This document shows, one piece after another, positions 4,996 to 20,035 of a stretch of 64,000 nucleotides of DNA. Position 1 is the stretch's first letter, and the number at the start of each line of letters is the position of its first letter. The position numbers were made by a program, and so were the translations under genes. Source of the DNA: Mariniflexile gromovii (GTDB taxonomy: Bacteria; Bacteroidota; Bacteroidia; Flavobacteriales; Flavobacteriaceae); assembly GCF_017814435.1 (NCBI RefSeq), contig NZ_JAGJCB010000004.1, positions 124,001 to 188,000 on the forward strand, written 5' to 3'. The notes beneath the pieces were generated by a model. It was not told the origin of the DNA. It saw nothing but the letters and a program-made list of their open reading frames with translations, and made no database searches.

Positions 4996-5254
4996 TGAAG
5001 AGTTAGAAATAGAATTTCAAAATGCGGTGGAATGCGTGAATGCTTACACCCAACCTTTCCCTGCAGATGTGCTTTTAAACCTATATGCTTACTACAAGAA
5101 AGCAACCAATAATTACAGTCGGCCAAGTAGTAAAAAAGCCATAATAAATGCTTTTAAAACCAACGCATTGTTTCAAGTAAAAGACCTTACACAGAACGAA
5201 GCAAAACGTTTGTATATTGATTTGGTGAATAAATACTTTTTATACGGAAAGTAG
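4988..5254 (+). CDS. Acyl-CoA-binding protein
   Basis: A small cytoplasmic carrier that binds long-chain acyl-CoA esters. With the ATG at 4988 the product is 88 residues, beginning MTDEELEIEFQNAVE. The four-helix ACBP pattern is present: LLNLYAYYKKAT (the YxxYKQAT-like motif) and the later KAIINAF segment, although the usual KWDAW core is diverged. An upstream in-frame GTG at 4964 would add eight residues and a 32-base overlap with psd; the ATG, overlapping psd by 8 bases, is the more natural start. Clustering with cdsA and psd suits a lipid role. Confidence 0.85.
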   Translation: MTDEELEIEFQNAVECVNAYTQPFPADVLLNLYAYYKKATNNYSRPSSKKAIINAFKTNALFQVKDLTQNEAKRLYIDLVNKYFLYGK

Positions 5255-5352
5255 CATCAAAGAATTTCCAAAAAGAGGAAATTTCAAATTCCAAAAAATC
5301 TTCTGCGAATTTATTTCTGAAAATATATCATAATACCTTTTCCAAGGTTTAA

Positions 5353-7137
5353 TTACATCCTCTCAGGCACTTGAATTCCTAAAACATGAAATGCATTCTT
5401 AATGGTCTGCGCTACTTTTTTAGACAGTTGTACTCTAAATATTTTTTCATTTTCATTATCTGCACCTAAAATAGATACATTTTGGTAGAAAGAATTAAAT
5501 TCCTTTACCAAATCGTAAGTATAGTTAGCTACCAATGCTGGACTATGTTGCATAGCGGCATTTTGGATAACTTCCGGAAATAACTCTAGTTGTTTTAAAA
5601 GCTCTTTTTCTTTTTCATGTAATGATTTATCAACTGAGCTTAAATTGACGCTATAATCAAAATCTGCCTTTCTTAAAATAGCTTGAATTCTGGCATAAGT
5701 ATATTGAATAAATGGCCCTGTATTACCTTGAAAATCGATAGATTCTTTTGGGTCGAATAAAATACGTTTTTTTGGATCTACTTTTAATATATAATATTTT
5801 AAAGCTCCTAAACCAATGGTTTTATACAGCGCTTCTTTTTCTTCCTTGGTATAACCATCAAGCTTCCCGAGTTCTTCTGAAATTTCAGCAGCTGTTGAAG
5901 CCATTTCATCAATCAAATCATCGGCATCAACCACCGTTCCTTCTCTACTCTTCATTTTTCCGCTAGGTAAATCAACCATACCATAACTTAAATGGTATAA
6001 GTTTTTGGCCCATTCAAATCCTAACTTTTTCAAAATTAAAAACAATACTTGAAAATGATAATCTTGTTCGTTACCCACGGTGTAAACCATACCGCCAACA
6101 TCTGGAAAATCTTTGATACGCTGTATGGCGGTACCAATATCTTGTGTTATATAAACAGCTGTACCATCGGAACGCTGTACTATTTTCCTATCTAAACCAT
6201 CTTCAGTTAAATCGCACCAAACAGAGCCATCTGCCTCTTTTTCAAACACACCTGATTTTAATCCTTCTGCAACGAATTCTTTTCCTAATAAATAGGTATC
6301 ACTTTCATAATATAAAGTATCAAAATCAACACCTAAGTTTTTGTAGGTTTCATTAAACCCTTCATACACCCAACCATTCATCATTTTCCAAAGTGACACA
6401 ACGTCTTCATCACCTGATTCCCATTTTTGAAGCATGCTTTGAGCCTCCAATAAAAGTGGTGCGTTTTTTTTGGCTTCATCCTCAGTTTTACCTGAAGCTA
6501 TAAGCGCTTCAATCTCCTTTTTATATTCTTGATCAAACTTAACATAATAATTACCAACCAATTTATCACCTTTCAACCCTGTACTTTCGGGAGTTTCATT
6601 GTTCCCAAATCGTTTCCAGGCCAACATACTTTTGCAAATATGGATCCCCCTGTCGTTTATAATTTGGGTTTTGTAAACTTTCTTTCCGGATGCTTTTAAA
6701 ATTTCAGCAACACTATAACCCAAAAGGTTGTTTCTAACGTGCCCCAAATGCAATGGTTTGTTGGTGTTTGGTGATGAGTACTCAACCATAATAGCTTTTT
6801 CATCAGCCTTAGGCGATACAAACCCATAAGTTTCTTCATCTTTGATGCTATTGAAAAAATCAAAATAATAGGTATCCTTTATTTCAACATTTAAAAAACC
6901 TTTTACTACGTTATAAGCTTTAACTTCATCTACATTTTCAACCAAATAATTACCAATAGTTTCACCTATTTGAACAGGGTTACCTTTTACAAAGCGCAAC
7001 ATAGGGAATATCACCACGGTAATATCACCAGCAAATTCTTTTCTGGTGGCTTGAAATTCCACCGATTCCAATTGAATATTAAAAGTTGATAAAACGGCTT
7101 GTTTTACTTGGTTTGATAAAGTCTCTTGAAGATTCAT
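5353..7137 (-). CDS. argS: Arginyl-tRNA synthetase
   Basis: Charges tRNA-Arg with arginine; class I synthetase. The 594 residues contain an N-terminal ArgRS additional domain (about 1-90), the HIGH-type motif HLGH at 130-133 within SSPNTNKPLHLGHVRNN, a KMSKS-equivalent GKMKSREG at about 393-400, and a helical anticodon-binding DALR domain ending ...VPERM. Length is normal. It stands alone on the minus strand, convergent with the acyl-CoA-binding gene, with a -7 promoter motif 25 bases upstream of its ATG. Confidence 0.98.
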   Translation of the reverse strand: MNLQETLSNQVKQAVLSTFNIQLESVEFQATRKEFAGDITVVIFPMLRFVKGNPVQIGETIGNYLVENVDEVKAYNVVKGFLNVEIKDTYYFDFFNSIKDEETYGFVSPKADEKAIMVEYSSPNTNKPLHLGHVRNNLLGYSVAEILKASGKKVYKTQIINDRGIHICKSMLAWKRFGNNETPESTGLKGDKLVGNYYVKFDQEYKKEIEALIASGKTEDEAKKNAPLLLEAQSMLQKWESGDEDVVSLWKMMNGWVYEGFNETYKNLGVDFDTLYYESDTYLLGKEFVAEGLKSGVFEKEADGSVWCDLTEDGLDRKIVQRSDGTAVYITQDIGTAIQRIKDFPDVGGMVYTVGNEQDYHFQVLFLILKKLGFEWAKNLYHLSYGMVDLPSGKMKSREGTVVDADDLIDEMASTAAEISEELGKLDGYTKEEKEALYKTIGLGALKYYILKVDPKKRILFDPKESIDFQGNTGPFIQYTYARIQAILRKADFDYSVNLSSVDKSLHEKEKELLKQLELFPEVIQNAAMQHSPALVANYTYDLVKEFNSFYQNVSILGADNENEKIFRVQLSKKVAQTIKNAFHVLGIQVPERM

Positions 7138-7161
7138 TAATCGTATTATTTTTTAAGTGAA

Positions 7162-7169
7162 CAAAGATA
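7162..7169 (-). promoter_or_regulatory. Candidate -7 element for argS
   Basis: Read on the minus strand this is TATCTTTG, an exact TAnnTTTG match, implying a leader of only about 15-20 nucleotides. The nearest upstream TTG is about 23 bases away instead of 19-20, so the -33 element is weak. Confidence 0.4.
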
Positions 7170-7247
7170 AAACTTTTATTAAAGGATTATTGCAAAACTT
7201 ATTCTAATAAAAACAGTAAATAAAGGTCAGACTTTTTTACTACCTTA

Positions 7248-7277
7248 TTGAATGAAACAGTTAATATTTTATATTTT
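7248..7277 (+). promoter_or_regulatory. Orphan promoter with correct -33/-7 spacing
   Basis: TTG at 7248-7250, then exactly 19 bases, then TATATTTT at 7270-7277 (seven of eight matches to TAnnTTTG). It faces plus, but no plausible reading frame starts downstream for 300 bases, so it may drive a non-coding transcript. Confidence 0.4.
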
Positions 7278-7282
7278 CAAAG

Positions 7283-7488
7283 CACTACAAAAATTCGTAA
7301 GTTTTACCTTCAAAAGTGCTGTTTTTCTATGATTTTCACCGTTAATCTATTCGTCGGATTTTTGATGTTTTTAGCTTGTTCCTTTTGTCTAATTTATTGG
7401 TAGAAAAACGCAGAAATTAGATTTTAATGATGCTTTTTATAACTTTTGCTTTGTAAAGCTATTGTCATCCATTGGGATGGATTTTTTT
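7283..7488 (+). ncRNA. Candidate ~200-nt structured small RNA
   Basis: This is a stretch within the 449-base gene-free gap between argS and the TPR kinase. It is bounded by an orphan promoter and an intrinsic terminator in the same direction. Internal pairing potential includes AGCACT 7281-7286 with AGTGCT 7315-7320, GTTTTTCTA 7321-7329 with TAGAAAAAC 7401-7409, and CAAAGC 7278-7283 with GCTTTG 7448-7453. Size and architecture would suit 6S RNA, but I cannot identify the family. In AT-rich DNA short pairings arise by chance, so this remains a hypothesis. I see no coding potential in the rest of the gap. Confidence 0.35.
7467..7488 (+). terminator. Intrinsic terminator with no upstream gene
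   Basis: Stem ATCCAT/ATGGAT with loop TGGG, followed by seven T residues on plus. The nearest plus-strand gene upstream ends at 5254, so it probably serves an unannotated transcript. Confidence 0.55.
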
Positions 7489-7586
7489 AACCAACAAAAA
7501 TATTACAACTTAAAAAGTAATGCTTATTTCCCTCAATTAAGACATACTTCTTATAGTTTTATTACTTGTTGTGATATTATAACAGT

Positions 7587-9641
7587 ATGAGGAAAGTAAT
7601 TACTTTAATTATTCTTTTGTCTGCATTCTTAGGTTTTTCTCAAACTAAGGAAATGGACAGTCTTTCCATACAACTTGCTTTCGAAACTCAAGATTCTTTA
7701 AAAATAAAGACCTCTTTAAAACTTATCAAATTGTTTTATGAAAACAATTATTATGATAAAGCTTCAAAATATATTGTTGAAAGCGAAAAACTTTCGAACA
7801 ACTTAAACTACACAAAAGGGATAGCAGAAACAACTTACTACAAATCTTTAATTTATGCTCAAAAAAACGACTATATAAATGCCGTAAGTGGGTATGAAAA
7901 ATCTAAAGCACTTTATAAACTTTTAAAAGACACACTTGGAATTGCAAAAGTTAATAACAGTATTGGTTTTATTGAAATTAAACGTGGCAATTACTCAAAA
8001 GGTATACAATACGCGTTAGCCGCCATTAAAGTATTAGAAAAACAAAACCTTAAAAAAGACCTTTGTTTAGCTTATAGTAATTTAGCCAAAGCGTACCAAA
8101 GCATTAACGCTATTGACAAGGCAATTGAATTCAATTTAAAAGCTGTAGATATTCAAAAACAGTTAAAGGATGATGTTACGTTAATACAATCCTACAACCA
8201 ATTAGCTGGACTCTATTCGGCTATAAATGAAAACAGAAAAGCTATTGAATATTACGAGAAAGTTTTAAATGGAAAAAATTCTAGTTTAGACTCTCTAAAA
8301 GGTCTGATTTATCCAAAACTAGGTGCTGAATATTTAAAGTTCAACGATTACGACAAAGCTACTCACTATTTAAATGAAGGTTTAAGCATCAATAGAAAGG
8401 CTAATAACCAAGACGGTATTTTATTGACTTTAAATAGTTTAGGTGAATTAAATTTACAAAAAAAACAATTAGTTTTAGCAGAACAACAACTTTACGAAGC
8501 GGGAACTATTGCAAAAAACATTAATAACAAACCAGAATTGCTTAAATATTATAAGTTGATGATGGTTTTAGACTCTACAAAAAATAAATTTGATAAAGCA
8601 TTTATATGGCAACGCCAGTATTACGATTTAAAAAGAAGTCTTAACAAGAGTAATTTAAAGAATTCCGATTCTGTTGAATTGGATTTCAATCCAAATTTCG
8701 AAAAAGATTTATTGGCAAACAACGCTGCTCTTGCTCCTACCCAAAACTCCGTAATTACATTAGATAACAATTTCGATAAATACCAACTCATTTTTTATGG
8801 TCTTTTAGCAGCACTTGTTATTGTTTCAACCTTCTTGATTTTAATTTACTTAAAACGAAATAATAATATAAAATACACTCAAGAATTAGAAGAAAAAAAT
8901 CTAAAAATTGAATTACAAAACAAAGAATTCCAAGAGCAAACCAAACATCTTGAAAATGTCAACAATGTAAAAGACAAACTATTTTCAATTGTTTCACACG
9001 ATTTAAAAGATTCACTTTCTTCAATAAATGGTTTTATTGATTTATTAAGGGACGGTTCATTATCAAAAGAAGAATTCGATAATTTAATTCCAGAATTGAG
9101 TGAAAATGCCAATAATGCGTCGTTACTTTTATTCAACTTACTTAATTGGTCTAAATCGCAAATGCAATCTTTAGAGCCAAAACCAAGTTTATTTGATGTT
9201 CAAGAAGTTTTTGAAGAGAAAGTAAAACTTATTGAAAACCGAATGGCCAATAAAGGCATCGAATTGATTGACCATTCTTTACGGGATTTTGCGTATGCCG
9301 ACAAAAGCATGTTCGAAATTGTTATACAAAACCTACTTGCAAACGCCTTAAAATTCTGCAAAAAGGGCGATACCATTACCATTTCAAACCATATAAGCAA
9401 TGGCAGTTGCATTGTTAGTATTGCCGATACAGGTACTGGTATTTCAAAACAAAACCTTGAAAAACTTTTCAAAAACAGTTCCTTTACAACCGTAGGCACC
9501 AACAACGAAAAAGGCACAGGTTTAGGTTTATCAATCTGTAAAGAATTGGTAGAATTAAACAACGGTAAAATTTGGGTAGAAAGCACCTTAAACGTAGGTA
9601 GCACCTTCTATGTGCAGTTACCAAAATCCAGACCATCGTAG
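7587..9641 (+). CDS. TPR-repeat sensor histidine kinase
   Basis: A 684-residue kinase of the Bacteroidota type with a periplasmic tetratricopeptide sensor. Visible in order: signal peptide (residues 1-18, ending GFSQ), TPR-like helical repeats over about 25-350, one transmembrane helix near 405-424 (LIFYGLLAALVIVSTFLILI), a short coiled coil, the HisKA box SHDLKDSLSSI with His471, and a HATPase domain with N box NLLANALKF, G1 DTGTGIS and G2 GTGLGLS near the end. All catalytic motifs are intact. No response regulator or DNA-binding partner is adjacent, so the output and signal are unknown. It is convergent with ctlX across a REP-like element. Confidence 0.93.
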   Translation: MRKVITLIILLSAFLGFSQTKEMDSLSIQLAFETQDSLKIKTSLKLIKLFYENNYYDKASKYIVESEKLSNNLNYTKGIAETTYYKSLIYAQKNDYINAVSGYEKSKALYKLLKDTLGIAKVNNSIGFIEIKRGNYSKGIQYALAAIKVLEKQNLKKDLCLAYSNLAKAYQSINAIDKAIEFNLKAVDIQKQLKDDVTLIQSYNQLAGLYSAINENRKAIEYYEKVLNGKNSSLDSLKGLIYPKLGAEYLKFNDYDKATHYLNEGLSINRKANNQDGILLTLNSLGELNLQKKQLVLAEQQLYEAGTIAKNINNKPELLKYYKLMMVLDSTKNKFDKAFIWQRQYYDLKRSLNKSNLKNSDSVELDFNPNFEKDLLANNAALAPTQNSVITLDNNFDKYQLIFYGLLAALVIVSTFLILIYLKRNNNIKYTQELEEKNLKIELQNKEFQEQTKHLENVNNVKDKLFSIVSHDLKDSLSSINGFIDLLRDGSLSKEEFDNLIPELSENANNASLLLFNLLNWSKSQMQSLEPKPSLFDVQEVFEEKVKLIENRMANKGIELIDHSLRDFAYADKSMFEIVIQNLLANALKFCKKGDTITISNHISNGSCIVSIADTGTGISKQNLEKLFKNSSFTTVGTNNEKGTGLGLSICKELVELNNGKIWVESTLNVGSTFYVQLPKSRPS

Positions 9642-9651
9642 TATTCTATTT

Positions 9652-9737
9652 GGGCGTTACCCCTATGGGTCGGGCTATCCGTTGCAATCTTTTTGCTTGT
9701 GCCTCACAAAAAGGATTTCCACTCCTATCCCTAACGC
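9652..9737 (+). repeat. REP-like intergenic element, copy A
   Basis: Starts GGGCGTTA and ends TAACGC, giving a terminal inverted repeat, with an internal ACCC-ctat-GGGT hairpin followed by CGGGCTATCCGTT. It is GC-rich against its surroundings and lies between two converging genes. Related copies are at 15421-15503 and, inverted, at 44577-44647. Confidence 0.75.
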
Positions 9738-9753
9738 AACCCTATCAGCCAAC

Positions 9754-10689
9754 TTAGTTTTTAGGCAAAAACACCTCTGCCATCATACAACGGGCACTAC
9801 CACCACCACAAGCCTCAATAGTATCCAAAGAACTTGAAAGTATTTTAGTGTGCTTCTCAAGCCTTTTAACCTGATCTGTTGTTAACGAATTATAGGCTGC
9901 CGCACTCATTACCAAATAGCGTTCGTCATTGGCACCTCTAACCTGCAACATGTTGCCCGCAAAATTATTTACTTGTGCTTCGGTTATATCTATAATTTCC
10001 TTGCCATCTTGTTTTAAATGGTCCATTACATTTCTTCGTTCTTTTTTATCGTCTATACTGCTTAAGCAAATAACGGCAAAGGTTTCACCCAAACACATCA
10101 TCACATTGGTATGGTAAATGGCTTTTCGCTCACCATTCACGGTTTGGTTTGCTGTAAAAATAATGGGCAAGTATTCAAAATCTTCACAAAACTCAATAAA
10201 CAAATCCTCATCAGCTCTAGGCGATAAGGCACAATAAGCCTTTCTATTGGCACGATCCAACAAAATGCTTCCTGTGCCTTCAAGAAAAACATTTTCTTCC
10301 TCAGCATCTGTGTAATCAACTATATTGTTAATTACAAAACCATCTTCTTCCACCGCTTCCAGCACATCCTCACTACGCTCCAAACGTCTATTTTCCGCAA
10401 ACATGGGGTATAAACCCACATCACCATTTTCATGGAACGACACCCAGTTATTTGGGAAAACGGCATCTGGTGTATCAAACTCCTCTGTATCATTTACCAC
10501 AATTACATGAACCCCAACATTACGTAGCTTTTCAACATAAGCATCAAACTCTTGTTGCGCTTTGGCATTTACCGTTTGCGGCAATACATTATCCAGTATT
10601 TTTTGGTAGTAATTGTTTACAGCGGTTTGCTCGTTCATCCTAAAATTTATAGGACGAATCATTAAAATAGTATTTGTGGTTTGTTGCAT
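9754..10689 (-). CDS. ctlX: CtlX-like citrulline/arginine-modifying hydrolase
   Basis: A 311-residue member of the guanidine-modifying (amidinotransferase/deiminase) superfamily, closest by eye to CtlX, reported to act in citrulline utilisation. The catalytic set is visible: NNWVSFHENG at about 80-89, FLEGTGS with Glu137, HTNVMM with His193, and GGGSARCMMAE with the nucleophile Cys301 near the C-terminus. The ATG at 10689 follows a -7-like motif by about 20 bases. A second, DDAH-like member of the superfamily lies 860 bases away on the same strand. The real substrate cannot be read from sequence. Confidence 0.85.
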   Translation of the reverse strand: MQQTTNTILMIRPINFRMNEQTAVNNYYQKILDNVLPQTVNAKAQQEFDAYVEKLRNVGVHVIVVNDTEEFDTPDAVFPNNWVSFHENGDVGLYPMFAENRRLERSEDVLEAVEEDGFVINNIVDYTDAEEENVFLEGTGSILLDRANRKAYCALSPRADEDLFIEFCEDFEYLPIIFTANQTVNGERKAIYHTNVMMCLGETFAVICLSSIDDKKERRNVMDHLKQDGKEIIDITEAQVNNFAGNMLQVRGANDERYLVMSAAAYNSLTTDQVKRLEKHTKILSSSLDTIEACGGGSARCMMAEVFLPKN

Positions 10690-19928: not shown

Positions 19929-20035
19929 TTTAAATTGTTTTTTTAAGAGTGATTATGAATTAAGGTCTTAATCTTATCCTTCGATAATCGTTGATCTCTT
20001 TTTGATACTTGTTAATAATTATTTTTTTCGGTTTG

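Follow-up and report, generated by a model that had tools for sequence, protein, structure and literature searches.

The window (the whole 64,000-nt stretch of Mariniflexile gromovii DNA analysed here) contains no annotated gene between positions 7138 and 7586, which bears out the gap that an earlier sequence-only reading had placed between argS (5353-7137, minus strand) and the open reading frame of a TPR kinase (7587-9641, plus strand). Immediately past the 3' end of the kinase gene, on the opposite strand, is a Flavo-1 RNA (RF01705, 55.6 bits; 9664-9740, minus strand), and an S4-Flavobacteria ribosomal protein leader (RF03141, 51.5 bits) is found at 19951-19989 (minus strand). By sequence comparison, the gap appears to hold an unannotated control region common to dozens of Flavobacteriaceae genera, and its conserved part (7298-7448) comprises four modules, M1 to M4. 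The features of the locus are as follows.

7162-7169, minus strand: argS -7 box TATCTTTG, a canonical TAHHTTTG that served as positive control.
7248-7277, plus strand: promoter TTG-N19-TATATTTT of the sequence-only reading, without conservation and judged incidental.
7298-7319, plus strand: M1, consensus TGCATTTCATCGA.AAAAGTG; may contain a repeat in both orientations, of which the window has a degenerate form.
7321-7365, plus strand: M2, a conserved block with consensus TTTTTCTATGATTTTTRCCGTTNATCTATTCGTCGA; 11-mer copy CCGTTAATCTA at 7339-7349.
7381-7420, plus strand: M3, 11-mer copy CCTTTTGTCTA (7381-7391) fused to CTAATTTATTGGTAGAAAAACGCAGAAATTAG (7389-7420).
7433-7448, plus strand: M4, a T-tract and the -7-like box AACTTTTG (7441-7448); putative core promoter.
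7453 (+/-2), plus strand: predicted start of the kinase mRNA, placed 4-5 nt past the -7 box as in the F. johnsoniae promoters described in PMC6847099.
7458-7463, plus strand: GCTATT, start of the conserved GCTATTAA, near the predicted 5' end of the leader and at a variable distance from M4.
7465-7488, plus strand: hairpin and T7 previously read as a terminator; mainly in this genus, possible early attenuator.
7500-7577, plus strand: leader helix 7500-7509 / 7568-7577, enclosing 7523-7541.
7587-9641, plus strand: TPR sensor histidine kinase (TPR_12, HisKA, HATPase_c), the gene predicted to be under control.

The sequence-only reading had proposed a free RNA of about 200 nt (7283-7488), possibly 6S RNA in view of its size, with its own promoter and terminator. 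Both signals are present, but at the frequency found in shuffled sequences: a sigma-70-type scan (not of the Bacteroidetes type) finds 23 promoter-like sites in 5000-10000 versus 20.1 (sd 4.1) in shuffles, and a consensus scan finds 2 terminator-like sites in the same region versus 2.5 (sd 1.7). The promoter consists of TTG (7248-7250), a 19-nt spacer and TATATTTT (7270-7277), a '-7' element without the G of the Bacteroidetes TAnnTTTG box. The window is alone among 57 loci in having TTG-N17-23-TAnnTTT at this position, and no conservation of the promoter is seen even among five aligned congeners; in the nearest of these (G004), an alignment of the gap shows the TTG kept and the box replaced by TTTATTTT. 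The terminator consists of a 6-bp hairpin (7465-7480) and T7 at 7482-7488. Of 103 sequences, 6 show, near GCTATTAA, a hairpin and a T run after it (mononucleotide shuffles would give 1.45), and four of these 6 are congeners of the window; the window itself is absent from this count because its version of GCTATTAA, GCTATTGT, scored below the anchor cut-off. Congeners keep the hairpin pairing (ATCC/GGAT or TTCC/GGAA), mostly with T runs, and the hairpin and T7, which would fall in the first ~36 nt of the predicted mRNA, may serve this genus as an attenuator.

The proposed RNA, 7283-7488, does not fold better than shuffled sequence (z -0.26; 75 of 200 shuffles equally good). A covariance search against Rfam at its thresholds gives no match inside the gap, and the four weak matches there are eukaryotic or viral (E 0.8-9). 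RF01685 (6S-Flavo) has no match in 7130-7600 up to E 10, and the genome's 6S-Flavo match lies on another contig (G000:C18:23795-23901, 113.4 bits). Identity with 6S RNA or a known Rfam family is rejected on these results. A free small RNA would account for the two signals and for the hairpin pairing retained among congeners, but its promoter and terminator are confined to the window and to a few sequences, respectively, its fold is ordinary and plus-strand canonical -7 boxes are rarer than in shuffles. In addition, the conserved element accompanies the start of the kinase gene, and M1 to M4 keep a near-fixed spacing over a weakly conserved linker (both described below). This reading is very improbable. 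What survives of it is the underlying proposal of an unannotated functional plus-strand non-coding element: relatives conserve 7298-7448, but not the promoter and terminator ends.

Conservation was followed at several depths. A DNA search with the gap matched 12 of 40 genomes (the window's own included, and at least two probably by chance), and the conserved part is internal to the gap. With a model built from sequence only (R1), matches at E <=0.01 were obtained in 64 of the 149 family genomes sampled, the weakest probably by chance; other R1 matches at E 0.001-0.01 lie elsewhere in the sampled genomes. The end of the element is 84-133 nt upstream of the TPR kinase in 56 of 57 fetched loci, and the upstream neighbour is usually argS, although others occur. 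Kinase orthologues (46-100% identity, E 5e-143 or better) are present in 55 of the 149 genomes. A second model (R2, built from 48 sequences) detects the element upstream of 54 of them, at a distance of 98-224 nt, and direct inspection of the 55th (G157) reveals a diverged copy (20.5 bits, E 1.9e-5), giving 55 of 55. The 94 genomes without an orthologue have weak R2 matches in two cases, one inside an open reading frame. R2 matches occur in 6 of 119 genomes of an order-wide sample, three of them weak and outside the family, and no element match is found in four regions upstream of kinase paralogues (30-37% identity; L226, L228, L229 and L230).

The exact M3 pattern was also searched for in a named collection of 84,980 species, the genomes of which are partly the same as those of the family sample; this search probes specificity and not conservation. 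It returned 104 stretches, of which 80 were examined. The kinase is located 167-215 nt downstream of the pattern in 77, and the remaining three end within about 320 nt of the motif, such that all 77 testable loci have the kinase.

The search for a wider regulon yielded one convincing second copy of M1-M4, in G013 (L092 3001-3161, minus strand; R2 61 bits, with L092 outside the R2 training set). It lies 121 nt before a gene for a 220-aa protein with a signal peptide (by eye), with no CCCTC in between, and so M1-M4 appears to be separable from the kinase leader. Eight further places were checked. L237 is the same element, before an open reading frame recognised by eye as the G243 kinase; the matches in L231, L233, L235 and L095 are inside open reading frames; and those in L232 and L234 are in no open reading frame over 120 aa. 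The last, L236 1001-1111, resembles M1/M2 and lies 26 nt upstream of an open reading frame of 658 aa in another family of the order; this weak match (E 9.4e-4) may be due to chance. In the window's own genome, the next best match (19.6 bits) falls within an open frame of 721 codons on the opposite strand.

Distances between the modules were measured in 109 sequences (132 before dereplication), using for each distance the sequences that passed the anchor cut-offs. The M1-M2 distance is 35 nt in 56 of 59 sequences, the M2-M3 distance is 55 nt in 40 and 56 nt in 48 (together 88 of 88) and the M3-M4 distance is 44 nt in 89 of 89. The distance from M4 to GCTATTAA ranges from 20 to 34 (83 sequences) and that from M4 to the ATG from 128 to 180 (89 sequences). 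Spacing is near-fixed from M1 to M4 and looser just downstream of M4. The linker between M2 and M3 is 20 or 21 nt long and, in the 48 sequences with 21 nt, has a mean identity of 0.46 versus 0.34 expected by composition, part of which is a shared T run. That the spacing stays near-fixed although the linker is weakly conserved, and loosens just past M4, suggests a DNA-protein complex.

The modules also resemble one another. Profiles were compared using 45 sequences picked for good M1, M2 and M4, with 30 permutations. The top match overall is an inverted one within M3 (9.79), in which CTAATTTATTGGTAGAAAAACGCAGAAATTAG is a CTAATTT/AAATTAG dyad (M3 consensus CCTTTCATCTAATTTWTTGGYATTAAAAC....AAATTAG). 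The best direct match is between CCGTTCATCTA of M2 and CCTTTCATCTA of M3 (9.42; permutation maximum 7.87 of 30). M1/M2 (7.69, and 6.54 two bases further) and M1/M3 (6.68) match directly in the same register, none above the permutation maximum, and M1 has an inverted match with M2 of 9.10. M2 and M3 appear to carry copies of the same 11-mer, and M1 may do so with less certainty. The repeats start at intervals of 39 and 41/42 bp, and the M1 copy is degenerate in the window; a weaker copy, CTATTCGTCGG, was read by eye in M2 (7347-7357). A repeated motif at fixed spacing, as sought for an operator, is present, and among module pairs only M2/M3 beats all 30 permutations. The repeats are putative operator sites, an assignment that is supported but not proven. 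Counting against it, the exact M3 pattern is found only ahead of the kinase in the 77 testable loci, and a DNA site with a single target is unusual for a regulator.

Two other readings of these modules were rejected. M3 as a promoter (TTG-N18-TAGATTTT) was set aside because many loci appear to lack the TTTT. A short hydrophobic plus-strand open reading frame in M2 (24 aa in the window) was rejected by eye on alignments because relatives show early stops and first- and second-position changes.

Flavobacterial promoters have a -7 box, TAHHTTTG, located 4-5 nt from the start, and AT-rich motifs near -18 and -28, as described for F. johnsoniae in PMC6847099. All 52 loci in which the argS start is intact have a TAHHTTTG within 120 nt of it. 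On the kinase side it is found in 2 of 56 loci in the 120 nt upstream of M1 (mononucleotide shuffles 3.6), in 4 of 56 inside M1-M4 (7.4) and in 2 of 56 from M4 to the ATG (4.6). M4 (consensus CTTTTT..AAYTTTTG) has a -7-like box, AAYTTTTG, with A at -11 in 98 of 98 sequences, G at -5 in 94 of 98 and never G at -10 or -9; T is present in 93-98 of the 98 at -19 to -16. T at -12 occurs in 0 of 98, a count made on the 98 of 109 sequences above a cut for which the M4 anchor itself had A at -12 (one of 16 letters). The box fits five of the six key positions of the sigma-A box and so falls short of TAHHTTTG; for a sigma-A promoter, a -7 box with no T at this position is unusual.

Because canonical boxes are rare here and the M4 box lacks T at -12, the promoter of the kinase gene, at M4, seems to be non-canonical, with a predicted start near 7453. 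As the box deviates in the same way in all counted sequences, we infer that RNA polymerase requires a bound regulator or another sigma factor. At ~134 nt, the resulting kinase leader would exceed what is usual in the family, judging by F. psychrophilum, for which PMC9723704 gives a median leader of 24 nt.

The region after M4 carries signs of RNA structure. The leader helix was counted in 56 of the 109 sequences, namely those in which the start reads ATGAGG and CCCTC matches well. Paired cells number 513 of 611 (mean 484.6 and maximum 498 in 200 shuffles), for a helix derived from the same sequences as were counted and with a weak consensus energy (-0.5 kcal/mol). The changes include 31 compensatory cells, and G-U cells exceed A-C cells (60 vs 13). 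Column-shuffle z is -3.42 for the ATGAGG sample, 0.23 for all genera and -0.96 for the other large group. Within the helix, 7523-7541 forms a hairpin by eye (one mismatch in the window), the loop of which holds CCCTC (7530-7534); of 47 single-sequence folds, 28 leave the middle of CCCTC unpaired. Other genera have a different leader around the same CCCTC. The pairing, the compensation and the excess of G-U over A-C point to a plus-strand RNA after M4, and we read the helix as a covarying plus-strand helix belonging to a structured kinase leader in the window's clade. In this clade, the leader sequence TTTCCCTCA (7530-7534) and the greater part of the start region ATGAGGAAA (7587-7595) are complementary; other genera retain CCCTC although their gene begins ATGAAACAG.

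If transcription instead began upstream of M1, the whole ~290 nt from M1 to the start codon would be one mRNA leader, riboswitch-like or protein-sensing, in which M3 would form a hairpin and the helix further downstream would act as the expression platform. This is the main rival explanation; the attachment of the element to one gene in 55 of 55 orthologues and the covarying downstream helix speak for it. Evidence from M3 is divided. In consensus folding tests (30 or 22 sequences, 50 column shuffles), M3 has z -3.95 to -4.33, its dyad being very well conserved, and its stem has 6 G-U and 0 A-C cells, which leans to a plus-strand RNA helix; however, the 33 one-sided changes and 27 broken cells (many near the loop), set against 1 compensatory cell, argue against a helix. 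M1, M2 and M4 have no clear consensus structure in these tests (best z -1.79 for M2 and -1.07 for M4, both in subgroups). A column-pair covariation scan of the whole alignment reveals no clear core helix, and its top scores resemble clade structure. Since the long leader is also at odds with the repetition of one motif, with the near-fixed M2-M3 spacing across a weak linker and with the scarcity of canonical -7 boxes upstream of M1, we consider it unlikely.

A minus-strand RNA leading away from the kinase and terminated by M1 would fit the short palindrome of M1, upstream of which the plus strand is often A-rich. Single-sequence folds of the core and leader (60 sequences) have z of about -1 on both strands and do not discriminate, the core folding at least equally well on the minus strand (mean z -1.39 vs -1.03). 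The A run is missing in several loci, however, a minus-strand TTG-N17-23-TAnnTTTG is present in 3 of 57 loci in the interval from M1 to the start codon, and the M3 and leader helices retain G-U, not A-C, on the plus strand. A transcript of this kind is most improbable.

The explanation that we favour, and regard as probable, is that the gap contains a multi-site operator and a non-canonical promoter of the TPR kinase, followed by a structured leader of ~134 nt. The proposed mechanism, which builds on the observed conservation, linkage to the kinase, module spacing, lack of a canonical promoter and leader covariation, is as follows. A predicted DNA-binding regulator would recognise CNKTTNRTCKA at sites in M1-M3, of which M3 would additionally bear the dyad at about -64 to -33. 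These sites would be held at near-fixed distances upstream of M4, which would provide the -7 box AAYTTTTG and T-tracts near -18 and -28. RNA polymerase would start at about 7453 only with the bound regulator or another sigma factor. The kinase mRNA would open with the ~134-nt leader, in which a long helix encloses CCCTC and closes immediately upstream of the start codon. This leader may tune translation and, in this genus, perhaps early termination too.

To our knowledge, little is known of Bacteroidetes promoter logic beyond the TAnnTTTG box. A control region this long and with near-fixed spacing, before every detected kinase orthologue and mostly without a canonical -7 box, would be a defined case of non-canonical transcription and a handle on the regulator or sigma factor and on the signal sensed by the kinase. 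With the literature searched, we tentatively suggest, as a real possibility, an undescribed flavobacterial promoter class: fixed non-T at -12, regulator dependence via several CNKTTNRTCKA sites, a CCCTC leader and a single kinase, across dozens of genera. Should the start lie upstream of M1, the same region would define a new ~290-nt leader RNA family.

The region shares features with several known systems. M2 (ACCGTTNAT) agrees, we presume, with the LytTR 9-mer. LytTR repeats are 9-bp pairs with 10-13 bp spacing, as given in PMC11347149, whereas the repeat starts here are 39 and 41/42 bp apart; a LytTR-type regulator of the kinase control region is a lead only. Like structured leaders such as the S4-Flavobacteria leader and riboswitches, the region has a conserved leader before one gene and a covarying helix, but it has no Rfam match at threshold and the M1-M4 spacing is DNA-like. 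M4 differs from flavobacterial sigma-A promoters in the absence of T at -12 and of a clear -33 TTG, but is like them in the A at -11, the TTTG at -8 to -5 and the T-tract near -18. As in activator-dependent promoters with repeated sites, direct repeats lie at fixed distances before a sub-optimal core promoter.
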